This document shows positions 2,791 through 24,196 of a stretch of 24,370 bases of DNA, piece by piece. The notes under the pieces were generated by a model, which had not been told where the DNA came from, made no database searches, and was given only the letters and a program-made list of their open reading frames with translations. Position numbers and translations under genes: made by a program. The DNA is from a virus, in IMG/VR virus record IMGVR_UViG_3300032240_000126, positions 1 to 24,370 of that record; one strand, written 5' to 3'. Within the stretch, counting starts at the first letter, position 1. Every line of letters starts with the position of its first letter.

Positions 2791-3861
2791 CTATAAATTC
2801 CAGTCTAAATCTAACTTGTATTCTATATCTAATGATCTACCAGCAATTTTTTTAATTCCATAAAAGTTTCCAGTACCTGAAATTGCGCCAGAATTATTTA
2901 CTGATAACGTAACTATATTTCCTACAATATTTGTAATTAAAGCATTTGTGCCAATTCCAGTTCCAGTAACTGGTTGTCCAATAAATAAATTATTAACTGA
3001 ATCTACTGTAATTGTATTTTGTCCAGATGTTCCAGATATTGATGTATTGTTAATAACTACTGATCTGGAGATTAATCCATAAATAGGATCAAAAGTATCT
3101 TCATCATTTATTCTTAATCCATCAAATCCAACATTTGTTATTGTGCCTGTAGATGGGACCAAAATAATTCCTATTTTAATAATTGCTGATTTATCTGGGG
3201 CTACTTGTGTTGCATTATTAAATACATCTGACATTAATATATCATTTGTAATTTTATGTCCTAATCCTGACGCAGGGATTATTGTGGTTTCAAAATACTC
3301 TGTATCTGTGCTATAGAATCTAATTTTAATGAATTGTAAATTATTATCATATTTATAATAGGCTAATCTTAAAGTATCATTGACGCTGTATCCAGAAAGA
3401 TTTAAAGATCCAATATTATAAAAATACTCATTAGAACTGCCATTATTAGATTGTAGTGTTAATGTACTTAATCCAATTCTAGGATTGCCTGTATTAAATC
3501 CAGCTCTGAATCCATCCTGATCTACCCAATTTATATAAGATTCAAAATCTGTAATGAACTTGCTATCAAATATATTAATAGATGATCTTAATGATGGATA
3601 TAATCCAATTTCATTAATGTATCCTTCAACATCTTGTGGAATTGTAGCTTTAAATATGACTGAGTGAGTAGAAGATCCTCCGCTAGATTGAATATCTGTA
3701 GAACCAAATAATACTGGTGTTCTATAAAATTCAAATCCTAATCTAGTATTATTTTCATTGGCTGAAGATGAATCTATTCCAATAGCTAAATCTTTATTTA
3801 AATTTGATGCATTACCTGCAATCACATTAGTTAAAAATCTTTTTCCAAATTTTGTTATCAT
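2791..3861 (-). CDS. Tail fibre/collar-type protein with CBM-like insert
   Basis: The 356-residue product begins MITKFGKRFLTNVIAGNASN and has KDLAIGIDSSS and INEIGLYPS (residues 24-90), reminiscent of the N-terminal part of tail-collar/fibre base domains. Its end, FYGIKKIAGRSLDIEYKLDL (about 333-352), looks like the closing strands of the same fold. Two other units lie between: about 100-255, a carbohydrate-binding-module-like beta sandwich (FESYINWVDQDGFRAGF, FIKIRFYSTDTEYFETTIIP, VGFDGLRINDED), and about 272-332, a short beta unit (SGTSGQNTITVDSV, then FIGQPVTGTGIGTNALITNI) seen singly or repeated in adhesins. It probably helps host contact. The next gene starts one base after its stop. Assignment is by visible pattern only. 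Confidence 0.68.
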   Translation of the reverse strand: MITKFGKRFLTNVIAGNASNLNKDLAIGIDSSSANENNTRLGFEFYRTPVLFGSTDIQSSGGSSTHSVIFKATIPQDVEGYINEIGLYPSLRSSINIFDSKFITDFESYINWVDQDGFRAGFNTGNPRIGLSTLTLQSNNGSSNEYFYNIGSLNLSGYSVNDTLRLAYYKYDNNLQFIKIRFYSTDTEYFETTIIPASGLGHKITNDILMSDVFNNATQVAPDKSAIIKIGIILVPSTGTITNVGFDGLRINDEDTFDPIYGLISRSVVINNTSISGTSGQNTITVDSVNNLFIGQPVTGTGIGTNALITNIVGNIVTLSVNNSGAISGTGNFYGIKKIAGRSLDIEYKLDLDWNL

Positions 3862-3871
3862 GATTCTCCTA

Positions 3872-4678
3872 TTAAATTGGTGTAGAGTAAGATGAATAAT
3901 ATGTATTACTATCTGTACCCACTACCTTTGTTCTTACTCTTAGCCATCTTGCTGCAGAAGTTGATGAAGTGTCCCCATCTTTAGAGCTTACTCGATATTG
4001 CTTAGTTACTCCATTAATTCCAATAGGCAATCCAGTTGATGTACTATAATCTTCCATTCCATTGCTTAATGTAGATGCATTTGATGAACTAGAAGAACTT
4101 ATTATCCATTCATATGATACCGACTTGTAAGACCCAAGTCCAGTTACGTTATCCCATCCCCATGATATTGTTGTACCATCTCGTTTAAATACTACCTCTG
4201 GAGTTCCTGGGGCAGGTGTAACAAATTGTGCAGATTGATTTGCTCCAAGTGTATCTACCTTAACAATAACAGTATTTGGATTAAATATTCTAGTGTCTAC
4301 AGATTCAACACCAGATGGATTTTTACTTGAATTTTTAATTTTAATAATTGCTCTTACTTTTTGTAATTTACTTGTAGTATCGTAATATGGCTCAAAATTA
4401 ATACTTTGTATATCTGTTAACTGTGGGACATCTAATAAGTTATCAAATGTTGGAAGAATAGTATTCACATTTCCATCATTGGTTGTATATGTAGTAGATG
4501 CTGCTGCTTGTCCATATGGGTTAGTTGTTAAATAAGCATCATAATTAATTGAATCACCTTTAATAGCAATATATGCACTTGGATACATATGTAGTGCATC
4601 TGGGTGTTCTTTATTTAAAGCAATAATTTGACCTCTGGTAAGGTTGCTATAATCTATTCTTGGTTTATCGTTTGCCAT
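3872..4678 (-). CDS. Minor tail protein with C-terminal FN3-like domain
   Basis: The 268-residue protein is coded 23 nt after the hub-like gene. Residues 1-155 are not recognised; they contain a LTRGQIIALNKEHPDALHMY stretch and a beta-rich IQSINFEPYYDTTSKLQKVR segment, which may be a short tip-adapter domain. Residues about 155-268 resemble an FN3 domain: PGTPEVVFKRDGTTISWGWD at its start and SYEWIISSSSSSN, then ARWLRVRTKVVG near its end. A poly-Ser patch (about 193-198) lies in a loop. Such proteins lie in tail-tip clusters and are usually virion components that decorate the tip or hold fibres. Function is inferred from position and domain type only. Confidence 0.66.
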   Translation of the reverse strand: MANDKPRIDYSNLTRGQIIALNKEHPDALHMYPSAYIAIKGDSINYDAYLTTNPYGQAAASTTYTTNDGNVNTILPTFDNLLDVPQLTDIQSINFEPYYDTTSKLQKVRAIIKIKNSSKNPSGVESVDTRIFNPNTVIVKVDTLGANQSAQFVTPAPGTPEVVFKRDGTTISWGWDNVTGLGSYKSVSYEWIISSSSSSNASTLSNGMEDYSTSTGLPIGINGVTKQYRVSSKDGDTSSTSAARWLRVRTKVVGTDSNTYYSSYSTPI

Positions 4679-4701: not shown

Positions 4702-6432
4702 CTATAGGGCTCTGCAGGTAATGCTAGTCTCCAATCCTTGAGAAAATGAATGTTTGACTGCAGTAACTATAAAATTTTCTGTTCCATTAAGTCCTTGATA
4801 AGGATAATTTATTGATACCATATCTCCTACAGAAATTAATGGATTTCCAAATATTGACATTTCTACAAGTTTACCCTTATTAACAACATTAGCTTTAATC
4901 CAATTTGCTAAAGATTTAACATCAGATTCATTTTGTAACCATGTAGACCCAAATAATACTGGCTCTTTTGTATTAAATGTATTGGCAGAATCAGTTGTAT
5001 ATACCAATTGTCCAGAAGATCCAAGAGTATTTCCATATATATAAAGACTTGCCTCCATGCCATTTGATAAAGGAATTGTTGTTGAGGTATTATTTAATAC
5101 AAATATTTCTGCTCCAAAATTAGATATTTTTTGACCAAGAACATTTGCATATTTATTTACACCAGTACTCCATTTAATTGGATATCCTGGCCTTGTATCA
5201 AACTTAACATCTTGTCTATATATTTCTCTAACAACAGTACCAAACTCATCTAATCCAGTTTCTTTTAAATTATTAGAAGAAATTTCATCATCCTTATACT
5301 GACCAGTATATGCAAGATCTCCATATGTTGTATTTATTAAATCATTGCTAAATTGACCTTGATAAAAATTTAAATTTAATAATTCATTGTATTGAAATTC
5401 TGTTAATGATTTACCATATGCATAATCAAATGATACGGTTCCACGCATACATAATAATGCAACTCTACTTGTTGGGGTAAGAATAGCTGTCTGATCCATA
5501 GTCTCAGTTACTTTATTACTTTTATATGTAGTATCTACATAACTAATTTTATATCCATTAATATAAGCATCTATATAAACTGATTTTGTTTTTACCTTTA
5601 CTTTAATATCAACGTTGTATATTCTACCGCCATAAATACCTTCAATTGTTGATTCTGTTCTAGTACCTACTTCTTTTAATGTTATTATTTTATTTCCAAC
5701 AAATTTTACAATTCTTACAGCTTTTTGATCAAATGTAGAAATTGAACTAGTACTTTCTAAAATAACATAATATCCAGTTGTTCCAGTAGAATTAACAAAA
5801 AATCCAAACCCACCAGATTGTGCCGTATTATCTAAACTATTATCCATTAAAATACTTGTTCCAAAAGAATAGTATCCTGCATTTGCATAATTGTCACCAT
5901 TAATTTTTGATACATCTGTAGCAGGAATTACTGTAATTGCTGGAAATACTTTATGAGCTACAGCAAGTTTTTTATTTTTATAGTCATCTTCTGATACTGA
6001 TAAATTTACATATGATTTACTTGCTTTAAATGTAGTAGGTGTAGTTGAAAATGGTTTTAGATTTGCCCCGTCTACTGGCATGGGAGTTGCTTCGGAATAA
6101 GCTGTATTTCCTGAATCTAAATTTAAATATGCAGTTGCAAAAAAATAATAAGTATCTCCAGGAACTAAACCTGTTATTGTAAGAGTTTCGGATGGACCAT
6201 AATTCCTTACTATTGTTTGAAAATTAATATCTGGGACATATACTCCAGATTCATCAAATATAAGCTTATGAGCTCTTACCTTATATGATGTAGGAGTTAC
6301 AGTAAAACTTGTTTTATCTATATTTATTGTAACTGATGTTGAAGATGTTATTTCAACCCCAAGGGCTTTAGATATAGTAAGTGATGATACTGTTTGTCCA
6401 GCACTATCAAGAATTCCAGAATCTCTAGGCAT
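4702..6432 (-). CDS. Minor tail protein: FN3, lectin-like domain and hub C-terminal domain
   Basis: The 576-residue product has at least three parts. Residues about 25-125 look like a fibronectin type III domain (SYKVRAHKLIF, SETLTITGLVPGDTYYFFATAYL). Residues about 180-345 look like a LamG/concanavalin-type beta sandwich, which in such proteins binds sugars (GGFGFFVNSTGTTGYYVILE, VYIDAYINGYKISYVDT, RVALLCMRGTVSFDYAYGKS). The last ~90 residues (about 490-576: DVKSLANWIKANVVNKGKLV, FGNPLISVGDMVSINYP, FIVTAVKHSFSQGLETSITC) match the terminal domain of siphophage hubs. Such a domain normally ends a single hub protein. Here it is separated by domain insertion or gene split from the upstream hub part. 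The start overlaps that gene by 8 nt. Confidence 0.74.
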   Translation of the reverse strand: MPRDSGILDSAGQTVSSLTISKALGVEITSSTSVTINIDKTSFTVTPTSYKVRAHKLIFDESGVYVPDINFQTIVRNYGPSETLTITGLVPGDTYYFFATAYLNLDSGNTAYSEATPMPVDGANLKPFSTTPTTFKASKSYVNLSVSEDDYKNKKLAVAHKVFPAITVIPATDVSKINGDNYANAGYYSFGTSILMDNSLDNTAQSGGFGFFVNSTGTTGYYVILESTSSISTFDQKAVRIVKFVGNKIITLKEVGTRTESTIEGIYGGRIYNVDIKVKVKTKSVYIDAYINGYKISYVDTTYKSNKVTETMDQTAILTPTSRVALLCMRGTVSFDYAYGKSLTEFQYNELLNLNFYQGQFSNDLINTTYGDLAYTGQYKDDEISSNNLKETGLDEFGTVVREIYRQDVKFDTRPGYPIKWSTGVNKYANVLGQKISNFGAEIFVLNNTSTTIPLSNGMEASLYIYGNTLGSSGQLVYTTDSANTFNTKEPVLFGSTWLQNESDVKSLANWIKANVVNKGKLVEMSIFGNPLISVGDMVSINYPYQGLNGTENFIVTAVKHSFSQGLETSITCRAL

Positions 6433-8482
6433 TTTTAGTAATCATTACTCCTGTCCATGGATATTTAGAAGTTGGTGCACCACTAGAATAATGAGTAGCA
6501 GCCTTAGTTCCTAATGCTCCTCTAGTCTTAACTCTATATACTCCGTTTGGTTTTAAATAAGTATCTGAACCATCTGAGTTAATTGATTGTTTACAAAAAT
6601 TTCTATATTTACCCAAATCATTTGAGTTTTCAATCCAAAGATTAATAAAATTTATTCCATTATCTAAAACAGTTCCTTTAAGAACATCTGTTACTTGTGT
6701 ATTAGTTGGATTTCTTGGTACATATTGATATCCTATTGCATCGAATTCAATAATTTCTGAATCTATTAGGAAATATCCATTGAAATTAAATCCAGTTTGA
6801 AATCTACTATATTTATCTGGAGTTTGTAGGTCTAATACAACTTTATCGTTTGTAGGACTTAATTCATCTTTTAATCCGCCAGCTATTAAAAATGAAGTTG
6901 GTGCTTGCCATAATGGGCCAGAAGATCCTAAATAATTAGATGATATAGGTGTAGACCAAGTTACTCTTACTTCATTTGCAGATGCTATATCTTTTTGACT
7001 AAAGTCTATTATGTTTGCTAGCCTATTGGTATCATTATCTTTATCATAATAAAAATTCCAATTTTTTGATCTACTTGCATACATATAATTTCTACTATAA
7101 AATTGTAAAATATTGTTTTCATCAACAACTGCATTCATTTGAATATCTCTACATAATTCTTGTAAGCTTTCCCATATTGTTTTAGAGCCATCAGTCCAAA
7201 AATAATTAATTAATGGTATTGAAGAATCTGTATCTGATGTGAGATTAAATGCATAATTTGTGAATCCTACAGAATCTAATAATCTTCTAATAATAGCGGT
7301 CACTGGATAGAATTCGCATAACATATCGGGTGCTGTAGTATCCATTAAATATTTAGAACTATCTAATGCTGTAATGGATGCATCACCATAATCACCTATA
7401 GACCAACTATCTATATAATAATGTCCTTGTAAAACTTTATCATATTTTTTAGATCCTTCTGTAATTGCGCCATTTGAATGATATATTTTAAAATATGGAT
7501 ATAGTTTTGCAAATTTAATTATATAATTAATTGAGTTAGACAATATATCAGTTCTTTTATATGATTTATATTGCAATGATGATTCATTATATTTTGATAA
7601 ATTTAAAATTAAAGACTGAGATACTATTTTACCTACTGGTAATATATCTTCTGAACTAGACGATGACTCTTTAGATATATCAAAAGATACAATATCTGGT
7701 GATATATCTTTAATCCATTTTGCAGATATTTCAATTACTCCAATTATTTTTGTAGCGCCTGCACTTGGTGTAGTCAATGTAATTGATTTAATTGATATTG
7801 GGTCTGGATATATTATTGGTTCTGACGGTTCTGCTACAGACCACGATGTTCCATTATAGTAAAGATTTACAATTCCATCTGATGGGGTTGATAATGCGTC
7901 TGCTACAATAACATTAGTATTATCTGATTTTGTAATTGAAACTGTGTAGGTTGACGGAAGGCTATGTGTTTTTTCAAATTTAACAACAATTTTATTTGTT
8001 AATGCATAAAGATTACCTGATGTTGCATAATTAATTTTAACATTTACTCCAGTATTTTTTGGAGTAAGCCAGTATTTATAAAAATTATCTGCTCCTGGGT
8101 AATATATTCTAGGTTGATTTGTTGGATACGATACAGATCTTGCAGGAGAAAATGATTTTGGTAAAGTGTCTCCAGTAACCATAACATAATATTTTACTCC
8201 TGGCATTGTTGGTCTAAAAGGTTTAATTAAAGAATCAATAGGGAATAATTTTTTATATGGATTTGGTCTTTCTGGTGGCCAACCAGGTTGTGTAACTGTT
8301 GTATTACCACTTGTTACAGTTTGTAATATTTGATCAGTATAAGCTGAATCTGCAATATTATTTTCTGCATATACTGCATCGATCATTTCATTCATATTAT
8401 ATTCGATATAGCATCCAGTACCAATTTCTACATTAGTATTTTTATAAAATATATCTTTTAAATTATCGGATGCTGAAATCAT
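6425..8482 (-). CDS. Baseplate hub / tail-associated protein, N-terminal half of a split hub
   Basis: The 685-residue product begins the tail-tip operon. Residues about 230-280 and 340-500 contain stretches expected of Tal/gp44-type hubs: KWIKDISPDIVSFDIS and GKIVSQSLILNLSKYN, YYIDSWSIGDYGDASITALD, and IWESLQELCRDIQMNAVVDE followed by NNILQFYSRNY (a hub domain with a Trp-Glu-Ser-Leu helix next to a beta pair). Residues about 75-260 look like an insert, probably beta-rich and containing a proline-rich stretch near 60-85 (PGWPPERPNPYKKLFP). The protein lacks the typical hub C-terminal domain; that domain is found at the end of the next gene, which overlaps this one by 8 nt. Acting together they would form the trimeric tip. 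No peptidase or lysozyme motif is visible. Confidence 0.7.
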   Translation of the reverse strand: MISASDNLKDIFYKNTNVEIGTGCYIEYNMNEMIDAVYAENNIADSAYTDQILQTVTSGNTTVTQPGWPPERPNPYKKLFPIDSLIKPFRPTMPGVKYYVMVTGDTLPKSFSPARSVSYPTNQPRIYYPGADNFYKYWLTPKNTGVNVKINYATSGNLYALTNKIVVKFEKTHSLPSTYTVSITKSDNTNVIVADALSTPSDGIVNLYYNGTSWSVAEPSEPIIYPDPISIKSITLTTPSAGATKIIGVIEISAKWIKDISPDIVSFDISKESSSSSEDILPVGKIVSQSLILNLSKYNESSLQYKSYKRTDILSNSINYIIKFAKLYPYFKIYHSNGAITEGSKKYDKVLQGHYYIDSWSIGDYGDASITALDSSKYLMDTTAPDMLCEFYPVTAIIRRLLDSVGFTNYAFNLTSDTDSSIPLINYFWTDGSKTIWESLQELCRDIQMNAVVDENNILQFYSRNYMYASRSKNWNFYYDKDNDTNRLANIIDFSQKDIASANEVRVTWSTPISSNYLGSSGPLWQAPTSFLIAGGLKDELSPTNDKVVLDLQTPDKYSRFQTGFNFNGYFLIDSEIIEFDAIGYQYVPRNPTNTQVTDVLKGTVLDNGINFINLWIENSNDLGKYRNFCKQSINSDGSDTYLKPNGVYRVKTRGALGTKAATHYSSGAPTSKYPWTGVMITKNA

Positions 8483-15378: not shown

Positions 15379-16037
15379 TTACTCCTTAGAGTATCCTAAA
15401 CCCGCTCCTATTCCGAATCCAGCTTCTGTGGCGAACTGTCCCTGAAGTGATACTATATCATCTCCGCTAACATTCATTCCTAATGCTTTTCTTCGTATAT
15501 CATCAAAGGTAGGACCTTCTTTTTCTTCTTCTTCATTTAAGTTTACTCCCTGAAGTGATGCTAAGAATTTTCTTTTCTCATCTTCAGTCTTTTGCATTGA
15601 CTTAAATGTTTGTATCAGTTCTGGCATTGAGAGGCTATCTTCTAATTCTTCGTAATTTTTCCAATTACCTAAAAGAAAAACTTCTCCTAATAAAGCGGCT
15701 AAATCTAGTTCTGCCCAGCCAGAACCGCTGCCGCTAGAAGGTTTGGGTCGTCAAGTTTGATTCCACCACATACTTCTAGAATGCGATTAATGGTTGGCAT
15801 ATCTAATGCATCCTCTAGTTTATCTTTATCTGCTACCAAATCTGGTACTTGTGATTCAATTGCAATTCCACATGCTGTAATTAGAATTGTAAGTGTTTCA
15901 TCTTCTCCTGATGAGCTTTCAGTTTTTTTAATTTCTGCCATGAACTTTCTTAAGGCTTTAATAGTCAAAGGTTTTAGTTTTACCTTTGAGCCATTTTGAA
16001 GTTCAATTTCTTCTACGTCGTATACTGTTGTAGCCAA
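15379..16037 (-). CDS. Tail assembly chaperone, -1 frameshift fusion (lambda gpGT-like)
   Basis: A -1 slip at CCCAAAC (15747-15741) joins the first 99 residues of the short chaperone to 120 residues of the second frame, giving 219 residues. The junction reads LDDPN then PSSGSGSGWAELDLAALLGE, so a flexible Ser-Gly linker comes directly after the slip, followed by the helical T-like domain and an acidic EEEEKEGPTFDDIRRKALG stretch near the end. The T frame is open from just downstream of a TGA at 15753-15751, so it can only be entered near this site. The ATG at 15627 has no SD and would cut the conserved part. The stop codon (TAA, 15381-15379) overlaps the tape measure's SD AAGGAG. The T-like part is expected to contact tube protein, the G part the tape measure. 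Confidence 0.87.
15705..16037 (-). CDS. Tail assembly chaperone, short form (lambda gpG-like)
   Basis: The 110-residue product is the unshifted form of the tail assembly chaperone pair. It would bind the tape measure and recruit tube protein during tail building, and is not expected in the virion. The start is a TTG with a perfect AGGAGG 5 nt upstream; there is no nearby ATG in frame. The protein is acidic, with a short beta opening (YDVEEIELQNGSKVKLKPLT) and helices after it (IKALRKFMAEIKKTES, INRILEVCGG). This opening, in which a surface beta pair is followed by LTIKALRKF, is common in chaperones of actinophage and Gram-positive siphophages. Codons 97-99 cover the slippery site that feeds the long form. 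Confidence 0.88.
   Translation of the reverse strand: MATTVYDVEEIELQNGSKVKLKPLTIKALRKFMAEIKKTESSSGEDETLTILITACGIAIESQVPDLVADKDKLEDALDMPTINRILEVCGGIKLDDPNLLAAAVLAGQN
15708..15747 (-). promoter_or_regulatory. Programmed -1 frameshift site: slippery CCCAAAC plus downstream stem-loop
   Basis: CCCAAAC (15747-15741) is in the required phase (C CCA AAC in the zero frame, CCC AAA in -1). Fifteen nt downstream GTTCTG, the loop GCTGGG and CAGAAC (15725-15708) form a perfect 6-bp stem-loop overlapping the end of the short form. CTA/TAG flanks could add a lower stem and shorten the spacer. Confidence 0.85.
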
Positions 16038-20172: not shown

Positions 20173-21222
20173 TTAAGAAGCAACCTTAACGTTCTTTACA
20201 ACTACCCAAGCGTCTGCTTGCTCGATCTGAACACCAACACGAGTATACATTGTGTACTCAATTGAGTCCTTACGTGGCCAGAAGAATCGGTATACAGTTA
20301 CGTCACGCTTGATACCAATAACTACGTTATTTGGGAATGTCAAGTGGATATCACCGTGTGAACCAGATGTTCCTGAATATGTACCAGTTTGTGTCTCTGG
20401 TAGTAATGGAACTTCAACAATTGGAATACCAAATGCGAATGGAGCTACGTATCCAGCTGGGCCAGATAGAGGAGCTACATCACCACGGATAAGGCTTGAT
20501 GCGATATCTTGTGGATTGGTAAAGTTTGTTGAGTTGCTTGTATTGTATAGATAATCTTGAATCAAGTTTGAACCTGACAAGAAGCGAAGATCTGTACGAC
20601 GTTGCTTGTACTTACGTGGAAGTGCCTTCAAAGCGCTGTTAAATACAGCACGAGAAACTGCAGCTCCACCAGCGTCAACTACGTGACCGTATGACTTAGC
20701 TTTCTTTACAACACCATCAAATGCCTTGTATAGACCATCTGATGATAAGTCGGTATTACCATTTAGGATTACATCTTCAATGTCGTTACCTGCCTGTGTT
20801 GCCATCAAACGTGCAATATGATCTTCTAGATCTGCACCTTCAATATTGTCTTCTAGAGACTCAGTTGAAAGTTCCCAATCTAGGCGCAATTTCTTTGTTG
20901 TCAAAGAAATCTTTGAAAAAGTAACTGCTGCGTTAGCTGCAGTATTATCTCCTTCTGTCGCAAGTTTCATAAGCTTTTCGCCTACGTTCATGCGATCAAT
21001 TTCAGTTGTATCTGCCTTCATGCGAACTGTACGTGCAACCTTACCAATTACGGTAGCGTCGAACATATAGTCTAGGAATCGGGCTGATTGTTCTGGGTTT
21101 AGTAAACCACCGTTGCCATTTTCAGACGCAGTGTGGACTCCTGAACCACCAGATGTTGAAGCAAATGTTGCTCTTGCTGTTGTATCAGCAGCAATAGCTT
21201 TTTCTAATAATTCATTGCTCAT
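20173..21222 (-). CDS. Major capsid protein, HK97 fold
   Basis: The 349-residue product is the shell subunit. The fold is suggested by the N-terminal arm (about 1-45, Gly/Ser-rich, GLLNPEQSARFLDYMFD), an E-loop-like stretch around 65-100 (VARTVRMKADTTEIDRM), a spine helix about 120-155 (ESLEDNIEGADLEDHIARLM, then GNDIEDVILNG), and a C-terminal A-domain ending with a beta stretch (FFWPRKDSIEYTMYTRVGVQIE, then ADAWVVVKNVKVAS). It lies directly after the protease-scaffold, the classic order. The start has AGGTGA upstream. Codon use is clearly less AT-biased than in neighbours, with many AAG, CGT/CGC, AAC, GAC and TTC codons, as expected for a very abundant protein. Whether the N-terminal arm is cleaved cannot be told from here. 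A terminator follows the stop. Confidence 0.96.
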   Translation of the reverse strand: MSNELLEKAIAADTTARATFASTSGGSGVHTASENGNGGLLNPEQSARFLDYMFDATVIGKVARTVRMKADTTEIDRMNVGEKLMKLATEGDNTAANAAVTFSKISLTTKKLRLDWELSTESLEDNIEGADLEDHIARLMATQAGNDIEDVILNGNTDLSSDGLYKAFDGVVKKAKSYGHVVDAGGAAVSRAVFNSALKALPRKYKQRRTDLRFLSGSNLIQDYLYNTSNSTNFTNPQDIASSLIRGDVAPLSGPAGYVAPFAFGIPIVEVPLLPETQTGTYSGTSGSHGDIHLTFPNNVVIGIKRDVTVYRFFWPRKDSIEYTMYTRVGVQIEQADAWVVVKNVKVAS

Positions 21223-21243: not shown

Positions 21244-21765
21244 TTATTTGAATAATTCGTTTACGGAACCGAGGAAAGAACCGTTCCATTTTGATTTTTG
21301 GATTGTTACTTCCTGAGACCCGCCAAGGTCTGAGGACTTCTTAATTGCAGTCTCTGATTCTACTGCATCGACACGTTTTTCTACGCCATCAATCGTGTTC
21401 TTGATATTCTCAACAGCTTTGCTGAGTTCTGCGTGTTGTTCTGCCAACTCTGAAATTCGACCTTCAACGCTCTTGCTGAAAGTTTCAACTGTTTCTTTAA
21501 TAGTTGTAACTTGTGCTGCATTTGCTTCTGAAGCTTTGCTTAGAGTTTCTGAGAAAAAGCCTTTTAGATCACCTAACATTTTTGCAAAATCAGGTTCATC
21601 AACAACGACCTCTGAGACGTCTGCTGCCTTTTCAACGGTTTCGGCAGAAGCATCTGCTGCTACATCTTCTGCAACAACTTCTTCAACTGCTGCATCTTCT
21701 GCAGGAGCTGAAACTTCTACTGGAGCAGTTTCTTCTACTGCTACTGTTTCTGTGTTTTCTGACAC
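21244..21765 (-). CDS. Nested free scaffold protein from internal GTG start
   Basis: Inside the protease-scaffold gene a perfect AGGAGGT (21778-21772) is followed after 6 nt by an in-frame GTG (21765-21763, codon 264). This would give a 173-residue protein starting MSENTETVAVEE and containing only the acidic segment, the coiled coil and the capsid-binding tail. The start falls exactly at the border between the protease/linker part and the scaffold part. Such nesting is known from lambda C/Nu3 and related phages, where free scaffold greatly outnumbers the protease fusion. An ATG two bases after the SD is out of frame and stops within about ten codons. The site and its position are seen in the sequence; that it is used is inference. 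Confidence 0.72.
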   Translation of the reverse strand: MSENTETVAVEETAPVEVSAPAEDAAVEEVVAEDVAADASAETVEKAADVSEVVVDEPDFAKMLGDLKGFFSETLSKASEANAAQVTTIKETVETFSKSVEGRISELAEQHAELSKAVENIKNTIDGVEKRVDAVESETAIKKSSDLGGSQEVTIQKSKWNGSFLGSVNELFK

Positions 21766-22554
21766 TTCATTACCTCCTTCTGCGTTTGCCTGTTTTGCAA
21801 TTGTTTGTGTTTCAGGCAACGTTAATCTTGACTTCTTGAATGAAGCAAGAATCTTTTCTATTTCTTTTGCTTTATTAACATCTTGGCTCTCAACCCATCC
21901 AATTAAGCTTGCAGGCTTACCAGTGATTGGGGAGTTATAAGATGACTCTGTTGACATGAATACTGAATCACTGTCTTCACAATAAAAAATATTTTCTGTA
22001 AGTACTTCTGTTGCAATACCTTTAAATATTAATTGACCATTCATTTTTGAAATAGAAACAATATTGCATAATTCATTTGCTGGTGAATCTACTACTGATA
22101 GTTCCATTAATGAGTAGTCTTTAATAAATCTAACCTTTTGTCCTGTTGACTTATTTACTTCATTATCTGATTCAATAATTTTTCCGCCAATTGAAAATCC
22201 TGAAAGTGTACCGTCAAGAACTTTTTCCCAAGTATCTTGTGCGCCTTTTGAAATGTAAGCATTTACATAAACACCATGATAAAATTCGCCACTCTTAGCA
22301 TCATAATATGTTTCAGGTTTAAAAGAAACCATTTTACCAACTGCATTTGATCCATGCATCTCTCGGATATTTCCACGGAAATTTTCAAATGCTTTTAAGC
22401 TTGCTTCTGCTGTAACTACATCGCCAGTTTGATCAACATTGTCTAGTGTTGCAAAGCCAGAAACAGTTCTCTTTTCACGATTAACTTTTGTGAATGGAAC
22501 TGATAAATTGATATTATCGCCATTGCTGGACCAATAAGATTTTTCAATATTCAT
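21244..22554 (-). CDS. Prohead maturation protease fused to capsid scaffold
   Basis: This 436-residue protein joins a prohead protease to a scaffold. Residues about 15-165 look like the S78/U35-type prohead serine protease: a VSGFATLDNVDQTGDVV opening, His67 in REMHGSN, Ser118 in LSGFSIGG, and Glu151 in SLMELSVVDSPAN, where the family carries its conserved acidic/PA segment. Residues 171-258 are a linker region with its own small domain (IFYCEDS, then ITGKPASLIGWVES) that I do not recognise. Residues 264-325 are Ala/Glu/Val-rich and acidic. Residues 326-400 are strongly heptad-like (coiled coil) and the end (WNGSFLGSVNELFK) resembles a capsid-binding tail. The protein would scaffold the procapsid from inside, then digest itself and the scaffold. 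The capsid gene follows 21 nt downstream. Catalytic assignments are by motif only. Confidence 0.9.
   Translation of the reverse strand: MNIEKSYWSSNGDNINLSVPFTKVNREKRTVSGFATLDNVDQTGDVVTAEASLKAFENFRGNIREMHGSNAVGKMVSFKPETYYDAKSGEFYHGVYVNAYISKGAQDTWEKVLDGTLSGFSIGGKIIESDNEVNKSTGQKVRFIKDYSLMELSVVDSPANELCNIVSISKMNGQLIFKGIATEVLTENIFYCEDSDSVFMSTESSYNSPITGKPASLIGWVESQDVNKAKEIEKILASFKKSRLTLPETQTIAKQANAEGGNEVSENTETVAVEETAPVEVSAPAEDAAVEEVVAEDVAADASAETVEKAADVSEVVVDEPDFAKMLGDLKGFFSETLSKASEANAAQVTTIKETVETFSKSVEGRISELAEQHAELSKAVENIKNTIDGVEKRVDAVESETAIKKSSDLGGSQEVTIQKSKWNGSFLGSVNELFK
21772..21778 (-). promoter_or_regulatory. Internal Shine-Dalgarno for the nested scaffold
   Basis: AGGAGGT, one of the strongest SDs in the window, lies inside a coding region 6 nt before an in-frame GTG. 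By contrast the full-length gene's own start has only a weak SD. Encoding Glu-Gly-Gly does not require this exact string. Confidence 0.72.
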
Positions 22555-22561
22555 ATGCTTA

Positions 22562-22590
22562 ATTTTATCTTTCTATAAATAAAAAGGCAA
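22562..22590 (-). promoter_or_regulatory. Candidate sigma70-like promoter for protease-scaffold/capsid, possibly leaderless
   Basis: TTGCCT (22590-22585), a 17-nt spacer and TAAAAT (22567-22562) match the sigma70 layout. A start site 6-8 nt after the -10 falls at about 22556-22554, at or within two bases of the ATG at 22554, so the transcript would have almost no leader. The SD upstream of that ATG is weak (AGAAAG), which fits leaderless starting. The -35 element is shared with the terminator stem. Confidence 0.5.
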
Positions 22591-22604
22591 ATAACTAGTT
22601 GCCT
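22585..22604 (-). terminator. Intrinsic terminator between portal and protease-scaffold
   Basis: On the minus strand AGGCAA, an 8-nt loop and TTGCCT form a 6-bp stem directly followed by TTTTATTT. It sits 5 nt after the portal stop. The stem is short, so termination is probably partial. The 3' arm TTGCCT also reads as a promoter -35 element (next entry). Confidence 0.6.
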
Positions 22605-22609
22605 AATAA

Positions 22610-24196
22610 TTAAGCAGTGACTCTACCCTCACCTTTTGGATTTCTAGCCTCCCCAGAATTATCTGGTGAATTTGCTGATCTTTCTTGAGTTCTTTGTCTA
22701 GAATTCATTGCTTGTGCTGTTTGTTCTGCTGCCTGTTGAGGTTTTAATTGTACTACGGCATCTCCACTTTCCATTGGAACCATGCCCTTTCTAATTCTAA
22801 CTTCATTAGGGGTAATTACCTGCATTCTTAAATATCTTTCATCAATTTTAGACTGAGTATCTTCATCTGTTAGTGTTAATTCATTGAATTTAAGAATTAA
22901 AGCATCTGTTTTTTCTGCAATAATTCTATTTAATTTCTTTTCTAAAATATCTTGAGCTGGACGACAAACTTGTTCTTTAAACATTTTATCTGCATCTCTA
23001 GCTGGTCCTAAATTAACACCTTCAGGAAGACCTAATTTAGAAATAGGAACTCTATGGGCTAGTAATATTTCATCTCTATTTGATTTACGATATACGTTAA
23101 ATGAAGACTCTTGAGCATTTGCCTCAATTGGTTCCATTTTAAATTCAACCTTAGAGTCTGATGTGTCTGCTGGAAGTGGAACATAGAGTGATCTGTGGTT
23201 TTTACCTTTTAGACCTACTTGGAAAAATTCAAGTAATTTACGTTCTGACTCTGGAGATAACTTTGCACCCTTTACTGTAATGATATAACGAGGTACTGCT
23301 TTATTTTCAAAATAATCTAAGTTATATTTACCAGCAAATTCATTTCCTGCCATTGCATTTTGTGCAGCAACAATATCTGGTAATCCGTAGTAGTTATTCA
23401 TTGGTGTATATTTCTTTAAATGAATAATTTCATTTGGACGATCTTCTACTCCTGAAATTGGATTAGGTGTTTCTGTATCTCCAAAGTTTCTAAAGTATAC
23501 AGCCTTGCCGTAAAGCAATTGAATAAATCCGTCACGCAAGCGACGTACACGCATTGTCTTTGCTGGGATATGTCCAATATATCCAATATTACCTGCGGTG
23601 GTTCTACCAATTTCAATAAAGCCATTTCCTGTAGCTTCTAGGTCTGTATATGCCTTAATTAAAGTTTCTGTAAATGTCTCTTCTTCATTTGTTTCCTCTA
23701 ACCAATTATCTAAATCTTGACGTAATTTATTTAATTTACGACGAGCACGTTCTAATTGTTTTGGATCATCAATTCCATCTAATGCATCATTAGCTTTTTT
23801 TGTTTCAGAAAATGTATATCCAAGACCTACAATATTTGCAACTTTTGCATTAATTGCTGCATAGTTATATGGAGATATTTCATAAATTTGAGATAAATAT
23901 TCTAAATTATATGGTGGTTGCACAAGATCGAACATTGCATAACCAGTAACTGCTTGTTGTAATAAATTCTGTTGTGTTGCAGTTCCTTCTTGACCAACAA
24001 AACGTTTTGAAAATTCTCTAGACATTTTTCTACGGAAAGATGTTCCTAGTCCATTAACTTTTTTTAATTCTTCGCCTTCAATATTAAATGGGTCAGTATT
24101 AAGAGATACTTCCCTATTATTAAACTTTACCCAATCTGCAGAATTTGAAATATCAATTCTTTGTGATGAGTCTTGTTCATCATCAATAAATTCCAT
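22610..24196 (-). CDS. Phage portal protein
   Basis: The 528-residue product fits the usual size of HK97/PBSX-type portals. As a dodecamer at one capsid vertex it forms the DNA channel, the terminase dock and the base for the connector. Family-like features include an N-terminal segment around residues 94-126 (PPYNLEYLSQIYEISPYNY, then AINAKVANIVGLGYTF), the GNGFIEIGR and IGHIPAKTMRVRR stretches (about 190-219), NEIIHLKKY followed by YYGLPDIVAA (about 255-278), and a late clip/stem region with HRVPISKLGLPEGVNLG and a following helix. The C-terminal ~35 residues are polar and look disordered. Translation is coupled to the upstream gene, with GGAGGA about 8 nt before the ATG. Codon use is AT-rich but less extreme than in the fibre genes. 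A terminator lies directly after the stop. Confidence 0.95.
   Translation of the reverse strand: MEFIDDEQDSSQRIDISNSADWVKFNNREVSLNTDPFNIEGEELKKVNGLGTSFRRKMSREFSKRFVGQEGTATQQNLLQQAVTGYAMFDLVQPPYNLEYLSQIYEISPYNYAAINAKVANIVGLGYTFSETKKANDALDGIDDPKQLERARRKLNKLRQDLDNWLEETNEEETFTETLIKAYTDLEATGNGFIEIGRTTAGNIGYIGHIPAKTMRVRRLRDGFIQLLYGKAVYFRNFGDTETPNPISGVEDRPNEIIHLKKYTPMNNYYGLPDIVAAQNAMAGNEFAGKYNLDYFENKAVPRYIITVKGAKLSPESERKLLEFFQVGLKGKNHRSLYVPLPADTSDSKVEFKMEPIEANAQESSFNVYRKSNRDEILLAHRVPISKLGLPEGVNLGPARDADKMFKEQVCRPAQDILEKKLNRIIAEKTDALILKFNELTLTDEDTQSKIDERYLRMQVITPNEVRIRKGMVPMESGDAVVQLKPQQAAEQTAQAMNSRQRTQERSANSPDNSGEARNPKGEGRVTA

Follow-up and report, generated by a model that had tools for sequence, protein, structure and literature searches.

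A two-for-one arrangement of protease and scaffold is known from phage lambda, phage Mu and the herpesviruses, and it is unannotated in more than 100 sequenced relatives of the gene analysed here. The lambda C protein is a ClpP/SppA-like protease of the S49 type. Proteases of the S78 type and those of herpesviruses are thought to have a common fold, and the short form of the herpesvirus scaffold has its own transcript. This nested product, UL26.5, makes up about 90% of the scaffold (PMC12474303). In lambda, according to Shaw and Murialdo (1980) as cited in PMC8508860, C/Nu3 comprises a protease-scaffold fusion and a free scaffold, the latter encoded by a gene that overlaps in the same frame; Nu3 binds C as well as the capsid protein (PMC3224144). 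In phage PaMx73 the scaffold starts at Val177 within the protease gene, behind an SD with a 9-nt spacer, and Mu has the same layout (PMC4378225). A nested protease/scaffold gene is also annotated in KS10, and the arrangement is said there to be common to many phages (PMC2628397). A different solution is found in HK97, where the delta domain is a stretch of 102 residues at the N-terminus of the major capsid protein (MCP) (PMC12749128).

The window, i.e. the whole stretch of DNA that was analysed, comprises the 24,370 bases of an IMG/VR virus record. It is AT-rich, and its minus strand carries a set of head-to-tail genes with the order portal, protease-scaffold, MCP; the MCP gene lies 21 bp downstream of the protease-scaffold gene. 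The features of this region are as follows.

22610..24196, minus strand: portal protein gene, upstream of the protease gene (PF04860, 2.6e-33)
21244..22554, minus strand: outer gene (ORF), S78-type prohead protease with a C-terminal scaffold-like region, 436 aa
22554-22552, minus strand: outer start ATG, with a weak SD
22075..22554, minus strand: protease domain, residues 1-160 (AlphaFold2 pLDDT mostly 75-89; BFVD matches)
21772..21778, minus strand: internal SD AGGAGGT, inside AAGGAGGT, conserved in 202/204 distinct relatives
21763..21765, minus strand: internal in-frame start GTG, codon 264 of 436 (GTG in 60/60 close relatives)
21244..21765, minus strand: nested gene, translated into a predicted free scaffold protein of 173 aa, MSENTETVAVEE...SVNELFK
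20173..21222, minus strand: MCP of 349 aa with the HK97 fold (PF05065, AlphaFold2, Foldseek)

A terminator-like stem-loop with a T run is located at 22585-22604 (minus strand) between the portal and protease genes, just upstream of the outer start. Two further observations concern the tail genes on the same strand. Just upstream of the tape-measure gene, at 15379-16037, two ORFs overlap in different frames (15705-16037 and 15379-15750, the latter open from stop to stop); they look like a tail-assembly chaperone pair of the lambda G/GT type and may involve a programmed frameshift. At 4702-8482 the minor-tail family phrog_10359 (1081 positions) is spread over two consecutive genes with an 8-base overlap, of which 6425-8482 corresponds to the N-terminal part and 4702-6432 to the C-terminal part.

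The product of the outer gene matched phrog_9427 ('head maturation protease') along its entire length (E 1e-128, 431 bits). PF04586 (Peptidase_S78) was hit with 27.8 bits at a cut-off of 21 (3.2e-6), and PF14550 with 22.5 bits stayed just under its cut-off of 24. His67 and Ser121, which we take to be the catalytic residues from general knowledge of the family, are invariant in 58 relatives. In the BFVD the protease part matched prohead proteases and XkdF over about 160-180 residues (E 1e-8 to 1e-10). A fold search of the PDB with the full-length model gave no match and hence no protease, and a sequence search of the PDB with the long form gave only generic, non-specific coiled-coil matches. 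The assignment of the outer protease to the S78 type, made in a first-pass annotation of this DNA, is upheld by the PF04586 score above cut-off and the prohead-protease folds in BFVD. The same annotation had expected gene callers to report the long form only; indeed, the annotated relatives listed name just a 'capsid maturation protease' or 'head maturation protease'.

Some relatives deviate within the outer gene. In L139 an SH3-like domain is inserted between the protease and the scaffold region (3750-4050; PF11160 Hva1_TUDOR, 1.8e-7). A similar-looking SH3-like insert without Pfam match is present in L141 (870-1140); its place ahead of the internal start means that it would be part of the long form only. 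In two relatives (L107 and L159) the protease part is interrupted by a premature stop, with the nested frame and its SD intact, which could reflect a sequencing error or a real split. As these stops may be sequencing errors, they were not used as evidence.

An AlphaFold2 model of the outer protein was built with 58 relatives; confidence over the full length is low overall (pTM 0.37). The protease (residues 5-160) is modelled with confidence; next come a small beta domain (about 165-225), a helix (228-243), a disordered stretch of 75 residues (245-319) and helices at 323-343 and 346-407. The internal start falls inside the predicted disordered, acidic linker. According to the first-pass annotation it sits exactly at the boundary of linker and coiled coil. 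It does lie at the junction between the protease and the C-terminal region, but within the disordered residues 245-319, about 59 residues before the helices set in. The short form would have 173 aa, 18.3 kDa and a pI of 4.3, and its first 59 aa are acidic with a charge of about -18. A C-terminal motif, K-S-x-D-L-G...S-x-W-x-G-x-F-L, is conserved in the relatives and would fit a coat-binding end. Searches with the C-terminal region revealed no named scaffold family, the matches being phrog_9427 itself and a weak unknown family, and a literature search found no paper on the scaffold of the phrog_9427 family.

On the coding (minus) strand the site reads AACGCAGAAGGAGGTAATGAA followed by GTG TCA GAA AAC, or with wider flanks GCAGAAGGAGGTAATGAA followed by GTGTCAGAA. 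AGGAGG occupies 21773-21778 and AGGAGGT 21772-21778, which leaves a gap of 6 nt to the GTG at 21763-21765, so that the window sequence bears out the earlier claim of a perfect AGGAGGT 6 nt before an in-frame GTG at codon 264. The energy of the anti-SD duplex at the nested start is -13.9 kcal/mol, the best among 19 starts scored in the window, with a runner-up at -11.6; these energies assume a canonical anti-SD. The outer ATG, likewise described as weak in SD by the first-pass annotation, reaches -5.3 kcal/mol at a poor spacing of 13 nt. The internal SD is unpaired in the predicted RNA, and local prediction of RNA structure around the internal start showed nothing unusual (z -0.3). When synonymous codons were shuffled within the window gene, a comparable site arose in 0 of 2000 trials, and the codon-permutation null in the relatives averaged 4.5%. 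AGGAGG alone was dropped as evidence, because its count in the window (6 observed, 5.9 expected) is not above chance. The weight rests on the combination of SD and start and on its conservation, not on AGGAGG by itself.

Relatives were collected by a first scan and then by two alignment-based scans reaching deeper. They comprise freshwater contigs, Streptomyces phages of the Stanwilliamsviridae and Rhodococcus phages of Trinavirus, with identities down to about 33-45%. A site was counted if it had an SD of ≤ -9, usable spacing and an in-frame ATG or GTG at the junction. It was present in 80/80 loci of the first scan and in 202 of 204 distinct ORFs of the whole set; after dereplication at 80% nucleotide identity 63/65 keep it. 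The two exceptions are L164, with AAGGAG-N9-ATG and a weaker SD (-8.2), and L139, whose contig ends before the site is reached. As background controls, a second such site was found in 5/126 genes and any such site in 19/307 long neighbour ORFs. The inner SD has a median of -13.2 across 64 dereplicated relatives, and among the 60 dereplicated relatives whose upstream region could be read, none has an outer SD at least as strong as -8 at usable spacing. Relatives that keep the protein but lose both SD and start would have spoken against the nested gene; the opposite was seen, as the 202 of 204 demonstrate. A scan with the divergent relative L124 as sole query returned L124 only, and when 296 Actinomycetota genomes were searched for S78_2 proteins, only a phage-like MAG contig came up, which was already among the relatives. 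Relatives are also contained in an uncultured cyanobacterium MAG (L179) and an Actinomycetota MAG (L180), a hint of an actinobacterial host; the cyanobacterial MAG contig may be misbinned.

In the Streptomyces phages (Stanwilliamsviridae), at about 44% identity, the site is kept amid different flanking residues. Annadreamy has AAGGAGGTGTAATC followed by GTG, and BillNye a GTTATC spacer; Jay2Jay has GGGAGGTGCAGAACAA followed by ATG and Yaboi GAAGGAGGTGCAGAACAA followed by GTG. The site is also kept in the Rhodococcus phages, whose identity lies below about 44%. The sequence is AAGGAGGTCAGTCAAAT followed by ATG in Rhodococcus phage Trina and AAAGGAGATTTCCCACAA followed by ATG in NiceHouse.

Counts of this kind are not independent, since the sequences are related; on the tree, by contrast, the register shifts and start-codon swaps each occurred separately. 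Across lineages the SD core occurs in all three codon registers (0, 2, 1), encoding EGG in one set, KE(E/V/A) in another and ERS or GRL in two single lineages. A tree of the protease domain only requires at least three register changes of the SD and nine ATG/GTG changes at the internal start, where swaps occur only between ATG and GTG. From these shifts and swaps it follows that the nucleotides are conserved and not the peptide. Comparison of the SD and GTG with surrounding synonymous sites, which the first-pass annotation had proposed as a check, came out in its favour: codons 253-265 have the lowest synonymous diversity in the gene, namely zero at conserved residues over 60 distinct close ORFs, at a gene mean of 0.302. 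Val264 is spelled GTG in all 60 close relatives, a codon that is rare elsewhere (115 GTG among about 2,485 Val codons in the whole set). Taken together, the comparative evidence of the sequences argues strongly for a used internal start, and the conservation of SD and start across relatives supports the earlier placement of an in-frame start between the protease and scaffold parts.

The neighbouring MCP carries PF05065 at residues 38-208, and its best Foldseek matches are phage capsid proteins (E down to 5.7e-12). Its AlphaFold2 model begins with about 41 disordered residues, the capsid domain extends from about residue 42, and there is no delta-type domain. In the isolated relatives examined, no neighbouring gene from portal to MCP is annotated as a scaffold. 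Since the MCP has no delta domain, another protein must provide the scaffold for this phage; the nested product suggests itself as the candidate.

Very probably, the best explanation as a whole is that one frame yields a 436-aa fusion and a free 173-aa scaffold; we infer the accumulation of both, their ratio and the scaffold activity. The site might instead arise by chance, or from a conserved EGG peptide motif that happens to spell an SD. AGGAGG is after all common in the window, and GG is always encoded in the close clade. This explanation is exceedingly improbable: the three codon registers encode different residues, GGA, GGT and GTG show zero synonymous variation, and the codon-permutation null also opposes it. 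The register shifts by themselves already refute it. Still less credible is that the SD serves an out-of-frame ATG 2 nt behind it (AGGAGGTAATGAAGTG), which would open a 9-codon leader peptide. Such an ATG does exist in the window (21770-21768), but the spacing of only about 2 nt is against its use. This candidate was rejected because several close relatives (L048, L044) read AAG or GTG at this triplet and distant ones lack it, whereas the in-frame start persists. It is also conceivable that translation yields the fusion alone and that self-cleavage is the sole source of the free scaffold, as for P2 gpO, the SD-like site being for example a pausing site. P2 indeed obtains protease and scaffold from one gene (PMC8508860), and self-cleavage of the fusion may occur here too. 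The internal start is nevertheless conserved in the window family: in essentially every lineage an in-frame start, always ATG or GTG, follows within about 11 nt of the SD. Pausing requires no start codon, so its constant presence behind the SD makes this explanation very unlikely.

The alternative with the most remaining weight, though still an unlikely one, accepts the internal start and takes the short product for a protease regulator, a minor head protein or a cargo-docking factor. The lack of a match between the C-terminal region and a named scaffold family is in line with this. The position between portal and MCP, the acidic disordered and helical make-up and the conserved C-terminal motif argue for a scaffold instead, as do the MCP without delta domain and the portal-to-MCP neighbours of the isolated relatives examined, in which no scaffold is annotated. 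The scaffold role of the short form is thus predicted from position, composition and analogy. A herpes-style internal promoter was also considered and rejected, as no promoter-like site was found just upstream of the internal start on the coding strand. An internal RBS is preferred to an internal promoter, given this result and the fact that the conserved element is an SD.

The site itself, the selection at the nucleotide level, the domain layout, the adjoining portal and MCP genes and the absence of a delta domain are directly established. In the two-product model, ribosomes starting at the weak outer ATG would synthesize the 436-aa fusion of S78 protease, linker and acidic helical scaffold, and ribosomes binding at the internal SD would start at the GTG of codon 264 and make the 173-aa scaffold part alone. 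The weak outer and strong inner SD fit low output of the fusion and high output of the short form, a ratio suggested by the sequence. By precedent, the free scaffold would co-assemble with the delta-less HK97-fold MCP into a procapsid, the fusion would join through the common scaffold part and carry the protease inside, and the protease would then digest the scaffold.

Among the described systems, Mu I/Z, PaMx73 and KS10 resemble the window gene in having an in-frame scaffold start with its own SD inside the protease gene. In contrast, no full-length homology was found between the Mu-like proteases and the window protein, which belongs to phrog_9427 of large actinophages and is distinguished by a stronger SD and by conservation across codon registers. 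The first-pass annotation had drawn the parallel to lambda C/Nu3. It holds for the gene layout, although the protease is of the S49 type there and of the S78 type here, and Mu I/Z and herpesvirus UL26/UL26.5 are equally good or better counterparts. With the herpesvirus pair the window gene shares a maturational protease fused to scaffold and a nested gene for the C-terminal scaffold alone; it differs by a conserved internal RBS and the absence of a promoter-like site just upstream. HK97 likewise has an S78 protease, an HK97-fold MCP and the order portal-protease-MCP. Its scaffold is the 102-residue N-terminal domain of the MCP, whereas here the scaffold-like part belongs to the protease and the capsid domain of the MCP is preceded by only about 41 residues.

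It is likely that the S78 branch possesses a nested protease/scaffold gene of ancient origin, driven by an SD and extending from freshwater actinophages to phages of Streptomyces and Rhodococcus, in which the RBS nucleotides were preserved while the peptide was rewritten in three registers; the gene could correspond, at the level of translation, to herpesvirus UL26/UL26.5. Conservation of an SD across codon registers provides a clean comparative criterion for nested starts that gene callers miss. The strategy of a protease-fused plus a free scaffold, as in lambda, Mu and herpesviruses, would extend to this S78 branch. For an actinophage family represented by 127 Streptomyces records and hundreds of freshwater contigs, whose capsid proteins have no delta domain and whose annotation holds no separate scaffold, the nested gene would supply the missing scaffold gene.
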